From positions 1 through 6,441 of the forward strand of contig JABIQT010000687.1 of the NCBI GenBank assembly GCA_018667995.1: 6,441 bases of DNA, written 5' to 3'. Within the stretch, counting starts at the first letter, position 1, and every line of letters starts with the position of its first letter. This document shows, in pieces, positions 1,825-6,441 of the stretch. The stretch comes from Candidatus Latescibacterota bacterium. GTDB taxonomy: Bacteria > JAAXHH01 > JABIQT01. Both the position numbers and the translations under genes were made by a program. The notes beneath the pieces were generated by a model. It saw nothing but the letters and a program-made list of their open reading frames with translations, did no database searches and had not been told where the DNA came from.

Positions 1825-1830
1825 AGGTGG
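1825..1830 (+). promoter_or_regulatory. Ribosome binding site of the amidotransferase-like gene
   Basis: AGGTGG lies eight bases before the ATG at 1839. It overlaps the alternative in-frame GTG at 1827, which argues that 1839 is the real start. Confidence 0.6.
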
Positions 1831-1838
1831 CGTTAACC

Positions 1839-2537
1839 ATGATAGTCTGGGTACGTGTAGAGACGCCGGAAAAGTATGAACTGAAACAAGGCGACTTCCA
1901 TCTCAAACGTCGCTTCGAGGAGTTATCCGGTGATCTGTGCCTGGTGATCCATCTGTCGCAGATGGATCCGGGTGTCTTGCAGGCCTTGAAACCACGGGCT
2001 CTGCTATTGAGCGGTTGCGGAACATTTTTTCGGCATTTTAAGCCTGAATCGCTTTATCCCTTTGAGGATACACTCCATGCCATGCCCGATGTGCCCACGA
2101 TTGGATTCTGTGGGAGTCACCAATTTCTGGGCATAATGTTTAAAGACGGTTTCAGGAATCTCACAGAGCTGGACGACGAAATGATGAGACCCCTCAAGCC
2201 GGGGGAACCGGACCCCCAGTCTGATCCTAATCCGGACGCCGCCGGGTTTTACTCAGAAGAAGGATTTCACTCCGTCCAAGCCTTGTCGACCGATCCGCTT
2301 TTTGATGGACTGCCCGAGAGATTCGTAGTTCGTGAGTCTCACTACGCCGAGGTAAAGCGTCTGCCACCGGATTTCAACCTCATTGCCTCAAATGAGAACT
2401 GCCGCATTCAGGCGATGAAACATAGAACACGCCCTCTGTATGGAACTCAATTTCATCCCGAGGCATGGGTAGAAACGTATCCCCACGGACGGGAGATCCT
2501 TCAAAACTTCTTCCGCATCGCGGGCATTCTGCCTTAA
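1839..2537 (+). CDS. Free-standing class I glutamine amidotransferase-like protein
   Basis: This 232-residue protein has the class I (triad) glutamine amidotransferase fold with no attached synthetase domain. The nucleophile elbow is GFCGSHQ with C91, and the His-Glu pair is in QFHPE with H206 and E208, so the Cys-His-Glu triad is complete. A block at about residues 53-60 (RALLLSGC) matches the strand that in this family usually ends in SGGP; here Gly-Pro is replaced. The elbow is also atypical: the usual Gly two residues after Cys is Ser93. Family members hydrolyse glutamine to pass ammonia to a partner, or act as gamma-glutamyl hydrolases. No ammonia-accepting synthetase is visible in the window, so a stand-alone hydrolase or amidase role is as likely. 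It follows the cupin closely and probably shares its transcript. An in-frame GTG at 1827 would add four residues. The stop overlaps the stop of a minus-strand gene remnant. Confidence 0.8.
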   Translation: MIVWVRVETPEKYELKQGDFHLKRRFEELSGDLCLVIHLSQMDPGVLQALKPRALLLSGCGTFFRHFKPESLYPFEDTLHAMPDVPTIGFCGSHQFLGIMFKDGFRNLTELDDEMMRPLKPGEPDPQSDPNPDAAGFYSEEGFHSVQALSTDPLFDGLPERFVVRESHYAEVKRLPPDFNLIASNENCRIQAMKHRTRPLYGTQFHPEAWVETYPHGREILQNFFRIAGILP

Positions 2538-3464: not shown

Positions 3465-4292
3465 ATGACTGACAAGTTCAGCAACTACGAAACCAGGTTG
3501 GATCAGGAAATGAGCGACCTGGAGGCTAATGCGTTTATGGAAACCGGCTACGTGAGGCTTGGAAGGATCGCATCATCGAGTGAACTGGTGGCGCTTCGCA
3601 GCAGAATTGACGACATCATGCTGGGAAATGTGAAATACGATCAGATGCCTATGCAGCTTGACTCCGAAACCGGAAAGTACGGCGACGTTCCGGGTCAGAC
3701 TCTGGCAGACGCTCCATCCACGCTTGCCTATCGTAGAATTGACGAACTGTGGCGCGATCCGGTATTTCTCGGCTATATGCAGCAGCCACTATTCAAGAGC
3801 ATCGCCGCCAGATTTATCGGTACCGAGGTATCCGTGTTTCGGGCTATGTTCATGAACAAACCCGCCCATAGAGGTACGGAACTGCCGTGGCACCAGGATG
3901 TGGGGGCCGGCTGGGGACTGGATGCCAATCCAATTACTACGATCTGGACAGCCATGGACGATGCGACCAGGGACAGCGGCTGTATGCAACTCGCCCCCGG
4001 CAGCCATAAAGCAGGTGTCTTGAGCGAGCGGCACTTTCCGACGGAGGAGCAAATCACACGACACGCCCCTCCCGCAGGCTGTATTCATCTGGAAGCTGTC
4101 GCGGGGGAAGCCATTCTTCTGCACAACTTTCTGCTGCACCGTTCCCCGGTAAATACAAGTGACCAGCCTCGCCGCGCTTTCAGTGTGCCCTATATGAATG
4201 CCAGTGTAAAAGATGTGCAGAGCGGAAGGACCTTTCCCGTGGTATTCGGTGAGCAGGCACTCATTCCAGAGGAACAGGTAGCGAATTCATGA
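3465..4292 (+). CDS. Phytanoyl-CoA dioxygenase (PhyH) family Fe(II)/2-oxoglutarate oxygenase
   Basis: The 275-residue cytoplasmic protein belongs to the PhyH family of non-haem iron oxygenases, which couple 2-oxoglutarate decarboxylation to hydroxylation (or, rarely, halogenation) of a substrate. The iron triad is visible as H143-Q-D145 in LPWHQD and H225 in LLHRSPVN; R236, eleven residues after the distal His, is placed to bind the 2-oxoglutarate carboxylate. The presence of Asp145 fits a hydroxylase rather than a halogenase. The segment at 158-181 (TTIWTAMDD to LAPGSH) is the usual core strand pair and SGCMQLAPGSHK block of the family. Length is normal. A ribosome-binding site (GAGGTG, 3455-3460) precedes the ATG. 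The stop overlaps the next ATG by four bases, so the oxygenase and the dehydrogenase are translationally coupled. The substrate is unknown; the family spans acyl-CoAs, amino acids, ectoine and secondary metabolites. Confidence 0.9.
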   Translation: MTDKFSNYETRLDQEMSDLEANAFMETGYVRLGRIASSSELVALRSRIDDIMLGNVKYDQMPMQLDSETGKYGDVPGQTLADAPSTLAYRRIDELWRDPVFLGYMQQPLFKSIAARFIGTEVSVFRAMFMNKPAHRGTELPWHQDVGAGWGLDANPITTIWTAMDDATRDSGCMQLAPGSHKAGVLSERHFPTEEQITRHAPPAGCIHLEAVAGEAILLHNFLLHRSPVNTSDQPRRAFSVPYMNASVKDVQSGRTFPVVFGEQALIPEEQVANS

Positions 4293-5038
4293 AGCTAGAG
4301 GGCAAAGTCGCCATCGTCACGGGCGGTGGCACGGGTATCGGTTCCGCCGCGGCGCTTCTTATGGCCGCTGAAGGTGCCAGAGTCTGCGTTTCGGGGAGAA
4401 GGCCATCGCCACTAGCCGCTACAGTGGATGCGATCACGTCGGCAGGAGGCCAGGCAATGGCGGTATCTGGAAACGTCGCTTCCGCAGAAGATACCCAAAG
4501 GTTAGTGCAAGACACGCTTTCGACATTTGGCCGATTGGATATTCTCGTAACGAGTGCTGGTACGGCGAACCTGACGGCGGTGGCTGATATGACCGAGTCC
4601 GAATGGGATGAAACGCTCGAAACGAACCTCAAGGGCACTTTTCTGGCCGTGAAAGCCGTACTACCTACAATGGTTTCCCAGGCGTCCGGAACCATTGTTA
4701 CCGTCAGCTCTATTCTGGGTCAACGTGGTATGAAGGGGGCTGCAGCCTATGGTGCGTCTAAGGCGGGTATTGAACAGTTCACGAAGGTGGTAGCCCTTGA
4801 ACACGCCGGACAGGGAATTCGGGCAAATACTATCGCGCCAGGATGGGTTGAGACGCCCATGACCGATACGCTTCCCAAGGATTCAGGGCTGCGCAAATTT
4901 ATCTCATCGAGGATACCAGCAGGTCGCTTCGGAGAGCCTGAAGAGATCGCTCACGCCGTACTCTACCTGGCCAGCGATGAGGCCTGTTGGATAACGGGTA
5001 CCGTCTTAACGATCGACGGCGGATGGAAAGCGCAATGA
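4289..5038 (+). CDS. Short-chain dehydrogenase/reductase (classical SDR)
   Basis: The 249-residue product is a complete classical SDR with a Rossmann fold. The cofactor loop TGGGTGIG is at residues 11-18. The NNAG-type block reads SAG at 89-91, and the catalytic residues are N113, S141, Y154 and K158 (Y-GAS-K). Further family marks are PGWVETPM at 184-191 and the C-terminal ITGTVLTIDGG at 235-245. Arginines R37 and R38 after the second strand, with no Asp there, suggest NADP(H) rather than NAD(H). It would interconvert an alcohol and a ketone, and closest in style are FabG-like and sugar or steroid alcohol dehydrogenases. The start overlaps the oxygenase stop (ATGA at 4289-4292), making a functional pair likely: hydroxylation followed by oxidation of the new hydroxyl. 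The substrate is not readable from sequence. Confidence 0.9.
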   Translation: MKLEGKVAIVTGGGTGIGSAAALLMAAEGARVCVSGRRPSPLAATVDAITSAGGQAMAVSGNVASAEDTQRLVQDTLSTFGRLDILVTSAGTANLTAVADMTESEWDETLETNLKGTFLAVKAVLPTMVSQASGTIVTVSSILGQRGMKGAAAYGASKAGIEQFTKVVALEHAGQGIRANTIAPGWVETPMTDTLPKDSGLRKFISSRIPAGRFGEPEEIAHAVLYLASDEACWITGTVLTIDGGWKAQ

Positions 5039-5083: not shown

Positions 5084-6441
5084 ATGGGACTTAGAACAGC
5101 CGAGCAGTATCTGGAAGGATTGAATGACGGTCGCATCGTCTATTTTCGCGGAGAGGCCGTTCCCAATATTCTTGACAATCCGGAACTCCGTGCCGGAGCG
5201 GAACATACAGCGTTGGATTATCACCTCGCCGAGAATCCGAAATATGCAGACCTCTTCACAGCTGCAATGCCGGACAGCGGTGAACGCGTGAGTCGGTACT
5301 ATATCCCACCGACAAATACGGAAGATCTGCTAAAGCGTCGGGAGATGATTGAGACGAGTACCCGAGAGGCAAGCGGGGTTGTGCTTCTCATCAAAGAGAT
5401 TGGGACAGATGCCCTCTTTGCAATGACGCTCAACGCCAGGAAGGTAGACGAGAAATACGGTACAGACTATCTGGACCGGGTTCGAAAATACCACGCCGAG
5501 TGTCGATCACGAGACCTGAGCCTCGCCGTTGCCCAGACTGATGCCAAGGGAGACAGGAGTCTCCTGCCTTCACAGCAGGAGCATCCAGACTACTATGTAC
5601 GTATCGTCGAACGCCGACCCGACGGCATTGTCGTTCGTGGTGCCAAAGCCCATACGACCGGAACGGCCTTTGTGGATGATGTCGTCGTGCTGCCCACCCG
5701 GGCCATAGGTGAGGAGGACCGGGATTATGCTGTTGCCTTCTCGATTCCTGTCAATACGCCGGGTGTCAAGCTGATAGCCAGTCCTTTTGGGTTCACGGGA
5801 GACAGTGAATATCATCACCCGGTGAGCAGCCGTCATCATCTAGTCGAGACACTGACTATTTTCGACGACGTTTTCGTTCCGAACGACCGTGTGTTTCTTG
5901 CCGGTGAGTGGGATTTTGCCGGGCCTCTGGCAAACGGATTCGTGGAGTTTCATCGATATACGGCTGTATCCTACAAGCCGCCTCTCCTGGATCTCTTCAT
6001 CGGCGCGGCCGCACTCGTAGCCGTCCATAATGGAGTCGAGAAAGCTAGTCACATCCGTGAAAAGGCTACGAGACTAATTACCTACACTGAAACGGTGCGC
6101 GCCCTCACACGCGCTGCCGCCATGGACTGCACCGTCGTTGATGGTATTGCAGTACCGAACACCATGACGACGAACATTGCCAAGTACCACTTTGCGACCC
6201 ACTACCATGAGGCCGTGCGTGACGTTCAGGACATAGCTGGGGCACTATTGGTTACCGGTCCCGCTGAAGCAGATTGGCTAAATCCCGAAACCGGTGAGTT
6301 GCTGGACTACTATCTTGGGGGACGCAAAGGCATCGCGACCATGGATCGTATGAAAGCCATGAACCTGATTCGTGACCTCACAGCTTCCGACTTTGGCGGC
6401 TACCATGAATTGCTTGCCATTCATGCTGAAGGATCATTAGA
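5084..6441 (+). CDS. HpaB / 4-hydroxybutyryl-CoA dehydratase superfamily flavoprotein (C-terminus beyond window)
   Basis: The frame is open from the ATG to the window edge, giving 452 residues of a family that is usually near 480-520. It has the acyl-CoA-dehydrogenase-like fold of the 4-hydroxyphenylacetate 3-hydroxylase family: N-terminal RTAEQYLEGLNDGRIVYF, a mid block TDAKGDRS (152-159), VVRGAKAHTTG (183-193), IFDDVFVPNDRVF (259-271) and a C-terminal helical region with FATHYHEAVRDVQDIAG (370-386). The TDAKGDRS and GAKAH blocks look more like the 4-hydroxybutyryl-CoA dehydratase branch (AbfD) than HpaB monooxygenases. However, the cysteines that ligate the AbfD [4Fe-4S] cluster (C99, C103 and C299, with H292, in the Clostridium enzyme) align with L101, I105 and Y297; only the His is kept (H290). 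HpaB's Arg/Tyr pair (GRSPDY) is also missing, reading GTDALF at 107-112. It is therefore likely an FAD enzyme without an iron-sulfur cluster. No flavin reductase (HpaC-like) gene is visible nearby. It starts 45 bp after the dehydrogenase, last visible gene of the operon. Confidence 0.85.
   Translation, partial: MGLRTAEQYLEGLNDGRIVYFRGEAVPNILDNPELRAGAEHTALDYHLAENPKYADLFTAAMPDSGERVSRYYIPPTNTEDLLKRREMIETSTREASGVVLLIKEIGTDALFAMTLNARKVDEKYGTDYLDRVRKYHAECRSRDLSLAVAQTDAKGDRSLLPSQQEHPDYYVRIVERRPDGIVVRGAKAHTTGTAFVDDVVVLPTRAIGEEDRDYAVAFSIPVNTPGVKLIASPFGFTGDSEYHHPVSSRHHLVETLTIFDDVFVPNDRVFLAGEWDFAGPLANGFVEFHRYTAVSYKPPLLDLFIGAAALVAVHNGVEKASHIREKATRLITYTETVRALTRAAAMDCTVVDGIAVPNTMTTNIAKYHFATHYHEAVRDVQDIAGALLVTGPAEADWLNPETGELLDYYLGGRKGIATMDRMKAMNLIRDLTASDFGGYHELLAIHAEGSL

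Follow-up and report, generated by a model that had tools for sequence, protein, structure and literature searches.

The window analyzed here, an entire contig of 6,441 bp, belongs to a MAG of 6.06 Mb (85% complete), and most of the named close relatives of this genome are Candidatus Latescibacterota. Its features are listed in Table 1. The gene of main concern encodes a flavoprotein, and its open reading frame (5045/5084–6439, plus strand) runs open to the contig end. The ATG at 5084 is the likely start because relatives begin at a conserved MGLRT, and the 452 residues present, out of about 479, leave some 27 C-terminal residues missing relative to those proteins. The Pfam domains HpaB_N (2.2e-84) and HpaB (2.5e-48) together span the whole of the sequence and were the only ones reported, with no acyl-CoA dehydrogenase (ACAD) domain called. 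Scores against the NCBIfam models HpaB-1 (183.9 bits) and HpaB-2 (116.1 bits), which truncation of the protein lowers a little, compare with curated cut-offs of 480.2 and 885.2, respectively. The glutamine-amidotransferase-like gene farther upstream keeps its place near the PhyH, SDR and flavoprotein genes. The PhyH protein matches EvdO2, PHYHD1 and phytanoyl-CoA dioxygenase most closely, all with modest scores, which makes it a weak pointer to phytanoyl-CoA alpha-oxidation, and we did not use it as one.

Table 1. Features of the 6,441-bp window, with residue numbers counted from the methionine at 5084.
Feature	Coordinates	Strand	Basis
DUF6785 membrane protein, cut by contig start	1..1254	-	7.3e-85
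Glutamine-amidotransferase-like protein	1827..2537		65–68% identity to marine relatives
PhyH-type Fe(II)/2-oxoglutarate dioxygenase; overlaps SDR start by 4 bp	3465..4292	+	domain match
SDR oxidoreductase directly upstream of flavoprotein	4289..5038	+	domain match; gene-order comparison
HpaB/AbfD-fold flavoprotein, cut off by contig end	5084..6441	+	HpaB_N and HpaB; same Met as relatives
L101, at AbfD ligand C99	5384..5386	+	HMMER, profile-profile alignment
E105, at AbfD ligand C103	5396..5398	+	HMMER, profile-profile alignment
TDAKGDRS block, residues 152–159, common to AbfD-type enzymes	5537..5560	+	alignments
GAKAHTTG block, residues 186–193	5639..5662	+	alignments
FDDVFVPNDRVFLAGEW block, residues 260–276	5861..5911	+	alignments
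H290, at AbfD ligand H292, kept	5951..5953	+	HMMER, profile-profile alignment
Y297, at AbfD ligand C299	5972..5974	+	HMMER, profile-profile alignment
HAEG motif, residues 447–450; E449 (6428–6430) is the proposed catalytic base	6422..6433	+	clade invariance, ACAD alignments

The predicted fold is that of a known superfamily. AlphaFold models of the window protein and of a full-length relative have pLDDT values of 91.9 and 92.8. AbfD-type structures, including that from N. maritimus (6vjr), share the fold (Z 47–49, rmsd 1.6–1.9 Å, about 33% identity); against an AbfD structure the window model gives Z 47.0 and an rmsd of 1.7 Å over 447 residues, and the FAD-domain blocks match, among them TD.KGDR and GAKAH. 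HpaB-type monooxygenases (2yyg, 6qyh, TftD, HadA) likewise share the fold and the Pfam domains. The fold of ACADs and oxidases (MCAD, SCAD, glutaryl-CoA dehydrogenase) is related (Z about 22–24), but identity is about 15%, there is an extra N-terminal region, and the window protein has no match to the ACAD Pfam models.

A genome scan yielded 71 loci and a search for relatives about 30, the two sets partly overlapping. Trees were built from 93 and 54 sequences; three Rhodococcus proteins were aligned but left out of the tree. In the IQ-TREE analysis the window protein falls in a third clade on one side of a well-supported branch (UFBoot 100, SH-aLRT 95), apart from the Fe-S dehydratases, whose side is supported at 100/99, and from the HpaB enzymes, at 100/100. 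An earlier note on this DNA, made from the sequence alone, had proposed that the protein belongs to a third group and catalyzes another reaction, and had named placement within an HpaB clade as one result that would speak against it. The tree puts the protein outside the HpaB side and bears out the separate group; the different reaction is something we infer. The clade comprises 29 related sequences, mainly from Latescibacterota, Binatota and allied MAGs (members in the tree also include proteins from MAGs labelled Gemmatimonadota and Myxococcota, and from other MAGs), together with no fewer than three proteins from Rhodococcus plasmids. In the phylum of the window, a clade protein is encoded by 14 of the 16 genomes examined and by 9 of 9 among those of good quality. 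Because the Rhodococcus relatives (44–45% identity) are encoded on plasmids of that genus, cultivated hosts exist. We found no published description of a cluster-free, Glu-bearing HpaB/AbfD clade in a search outside which most subscription journals lay. The fold and superfamily are already known, and the window flavoprotein belongs to an uncharacterized branch, without the cluster ligands and with a Glu.

The sequence blocks TDAKGDRS, GAKAHTTG and FDDVFVPNDRVFLAGEW lie where the earlier note had placed them. Its statement that residues 1–139 and the stretch from His290 to Tyr297 hold no cysteine is also accurate, as C140 and C349 are the only two among the 452 residues present and positions 290–297 read HRYTAVSY. 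AbfD (4-hydroxybutyryl-CoA dehydratase) binds its [4Fe-4S] cluster through C99, C103, H292 and C299. HMMER and profile-profile alignments match these sites to the residues given in Table 1 (MAFFT instead sets V99 against C99), and three of the four ligands are gone, H290 alone being kept. The mapping by hand in the earlier note was one residue off at the second site, where it had I105, and right at the other three, and its conclusion about the cluster site stands. For the HpaB catalytic residues R100, Y104 and H142 (Thermus numbering) it had given T108, F112 and V149; we obtain K104, A110 and V149, and the catalytic set is missing either way. The cluster cysteine sites are occupied by other residues in every third-clade member covering them, Rhodococcus proteins included, while all four AbfD-type ligands are kept in 48 sampled relatives, so the pattern is not one of chance. 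Without the cluster cysteines, the cluster-dependent mechanism described for AbfD is not open to these proteins. Other active-site positions have also changed: AbfD Y296 is replaced by A294, and the Glu of the AbfD motif ESMHGAGSP, which we take to be E455 by inferred numbering, aligns with L444 or a gap. The equivalent of AbfD K300, K298, is kept, as is H290.

Altered cluster sites were also seen elsewhere among the sampled sequences. Four proteins (L052, L054, L055, L056) have a second kind of broken site, with Cys 99, Tyr 103, Cys 296, Ala 299 and Arg 300, and carry GGGS, with no Glu, at the E449 position. Two distant relatives (L028, L097) have all three cluster cysteines, with Tyr in place of the ligand His292.

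At the C-terminal end, every third-clade member that extends this far has HAEG[SG] at 447–451. E449 is present as well in L017 (41% identity) and in the three Rhodococcus proteins, and no other sampled row covering that position has Glu there. The Fe-S enzymes read HGAG or HGGG, with Ala or Gly at this site (profile-profile alignment sets E449 on that Ala), and the HpaB enzymes have neither motif. When the family is aligned globally with ACAD profiles, HAEGSLEAQK falls on the ACAD motif YEGT.., with low column confidence; the local profile alignment ends at residue 387, and the global one alone reaches the motif. Structural alignment of the window model, whose truncated final residues are of low confidence, ends at the pair 450/377 in the MCAD entries 1t9g, 1udy and 4p13, at 450/393 in SCAD 2vig, and at 450/368 in glutaryl-CoA dehydrogenase 3mpi. 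The first of these pairs would put residue 449 beside MCAD 376 if no gap lies between. MCAD Glu376, the catalytic base, is located on a loop that connects two helices (PMC11153573); the full-length relative is modeled with E449 likewise in a loop (448–451), flanked by helices 436–447 and 452–462. As judged by motif, profile and predicted structure, E449 matches the position of the ACAD catalytic base, and the two families share an EG[ST] motif there.

Genes around the clade loci mostly point to CoA thioesters. An SDR gene lies near the flavoprotein gene in most of them, and in the marine/sponge group a PhyH gene precedes it, as does the SDR gene except in G001. The seven loci called freshwater (L039–L045) bear that name for convenience, some records being from Baikal, a deep-lake cast or groundwater. 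In all seven, a fusion of 3-hydroxyacyl-CoA dehydrogenase and enoyl-CoA hydratase ends 12–21 bp upstream of the flavoprotein gene; the best NCBIfam model for this FadN/FadB-like protein is Staph_FadB (1.7e-124). We tried the SDR and FadN-like neighbors as a guide to chain length, which neither of them fixes. Six of these loci have, ahead of the FadN-like gene, a conserved Pfam-less protein of about 500 residues that is probably exported (L043:4038–5786; also L040, L041, L042, L044 and L045). In G046 an acyl-CoA ligase gene is directly upstream of the flavoprotein gene; this genome has a second copy (L107:7372–8823), between a gene with a bioD-like start and an aminotransferase class I/II gene, which is possibly biotin-related. 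The R. opacus plasmid carries, in order, genes for an NDMA-dependent alcohol dehydrogenase, an aldehyde dehydrogenase, the flavoprotein (WP_025433939), a CaiB/BaiF CoA-transferase, an acyl-CoA ligase and a biotin-dependent carboxylase, and a 31-kb stretch there yielded no ACAD gene. Genes for SDR, thiolase and enoyl-CoA hydratase lie near the one in Rhodococcus sp. BH4, and in R. pyridinivorans an acyl-CoA synthetase gene is upstream and an ACAD gene downstream.

Genome content differs between groups of hosts. ETF-alpha was found in none of the seven freshwater-type genomes, which are MAGs of unstated completeness; that seven joint absences are mere gaps is unlikely. Five of the seven also lack an ACAD domain, and in each of the others a single divergent ACAD-like protein was found. 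These proteins (L123:690–2300 and L124:965–2191), the sole ACAD-domain proteins found in those two ETF-less genomes, are nearest to FadE16/SfnB and score far below every family cut-off. A strong thiolase, resembling acetoacetyl-CoA thiolases, is present in five of the seven. The sponge relatives encode ETF and two ACADs, and the window's own genome encodes ETF-alpha and two ACADs.

Taken with the missing cluster ligands, the ACAD-type Glu and the CoA-thioester neighbors make alpha,beta-dehydrogenation of an acyl-CoA the simplest reading, and both the order of genes in R. opacus (acid, CoA ester, flavoprotein, carboxylase) and the adjacency of the FadN-like gene suit it. The substrate is very likely a CoA thioester, a firmer conclusion than any about the net reaction. 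The earlier note had given oxidation, isomerization and C-N/C-O cleavage as an open list of candidate reactions; the Glu and the neighboring genes narrow it to CoA-thioester chemistry. We suggest that the window flavoprotein is probably an acyl-CoA oxidase/dehydrogenase. The specific proposal that an iron-free FAD enzyme converts an acyl-CoA thioester to the enoyl-CoA, with E449 as the base, seems to us to have slightly less than an even chance of being right. As in acyl-CoA dehydrogenases, the substrate would lie against the flavin; E449 would take the alpha-proton from the acyl-CoA, and the beta-hydrogen would pass to flavin N5, giving the alpha,beta-unsaturated acyl-CoA. The reduced flavin might then be re-oxidized by ETF where the genome encodes it and by O2, as in an acyl-CoA oxidase, in the ETF-less freshwater lineages, and the hydratase/3-hydroxyacyl-CoA dehydrogenase would act next on the enoyl-CoA product. 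Several observations count against an oxidase/dehydrogenase: no ACAD Pfam domain is called, the sponge genomes already own two ACADs and ETF, an ACAD gene adjoins the one in R. pyridinivorans, and the acetoacetyl-CoA-type thiolase of the freshwater genomes fits a redox-neutral route with four carbons no less well.

The serious rival is such a redox-neutral enzyme, a flavin lyase, dehydratase or isomerase whose acyl-CoA substrate would be 4-substituted or beta,gamma-unsaturated, and which would amount to an iron-free analogue of AbfD. The nearest solved structures are AbfD-type, H290 and K298 are retained, and the product would feed the adjoining FadN-like enzyme and the acetoacetyl-CoA thiolase; as ETF would not be needed, its absence from seven genomes fits just as well. 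There is also a precedent in BbuA, a flavin-dependent gamma-butyrobetainyl-CoA lyase that eliminates trimethylamine from gamma-butyrobetainyl-CoA (PMC8364193). BbuA resembles the enzyme of this rival reading in its redox-neutral flavin chemistry on an acyl-CoA, but as a protein it is like the acyl-CoA dehydrogenases and shares about 10% identity with AbfD (PMC8364193). We regard the redox-neutral route as somewhat less likely than the oxidase/dehydrogenase, given the further changes to the AbfD active site at Y296 and the ESMHGAG Glu, and E449 itself, an ACAD-type base that the Fe-S dehydratases lack.

A two-component monooxygenase of the HpaB kind, its substrate site altered and its reduced flavin supplied by an unlinked reductase, is improbable. 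The fold would allow it (Z about 44–46 to HpaB), and an HpaC-like reductase is encoded in 17 of 17 relatives tested, about 75 kb from the gene in several genomes. No such reductase was found in the window's own genome (85% complete); we dropped this absence as an argument on account of the 17 relatives and used gene adjacency as the test instead. No flavin reductase was found adjoining any clade locus; L024, a true HpaB that served as the control, does have one beside it. The loss of the R100/Y104/H142 set, the separation of the clade from the HpaB side and neighbors that are CoA-thioester genes all argue in the same direction. Weakest by far is a 4-hydroxybutyryl-CoA dehydratase with a [4Fe-4S] site rebuilt from H290, C140 and C349, which we consider scarcely credible: both cysteines are invariant across the MAG members of the clade and H290 is kept, but there are only two of them, they align with AbfD I138 and G351, neither a cluster ligand, and the Rhodococcus members do not retain them, so we rejected them as substitute ligands. 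The earlier note had allowed that these or cysteines beyond the window might occupy the cluster site; the alignments place none there, and the single additional cysteine in the C-terminus of the close relative L032, a region absent from the window, is distant in sequence from the ligand positions.

These assignments bear on annotation. The gene abfD (K14534) serves metagenome studies as the main indicator of CO2 fixation by the archaeal hydroxypropionate/hydroxybutyrate cycle (for example PMC8139981). One clade member, encoded on an R. opacus plasmid, carries the annotation 4-hydroxybutyryl-CoA dehydratase although the protein, as given in record NZ_CP080955, is without cluster ligands, and clade proteins are easily misnamed in databases. 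A simple residue rule separates the groups: Cys at 99, 103 and 299, versus Glu at the MCAD-base position. The clade also makes it testable whether C4 elimination in the AbfD/HpaB fold needs the cluster.

It is possible, though we hold this more tentatively than the proposed reaction itself, that a new type of acyl-CoA oxidase/dehydrogenase has arisen inside the HpaB/AbfD fold and replaces the missing ACAD and ETF in freshwater Latescibacterota-like bacteria. Should the reaction be as proposed, a single fold would have given rise to radical dehydration, to monooxygenation and to acyl-CoA desaturation by a handful of changes at the active site, and lineages lacking ETF would have a route through the first step of beta-oxidation.
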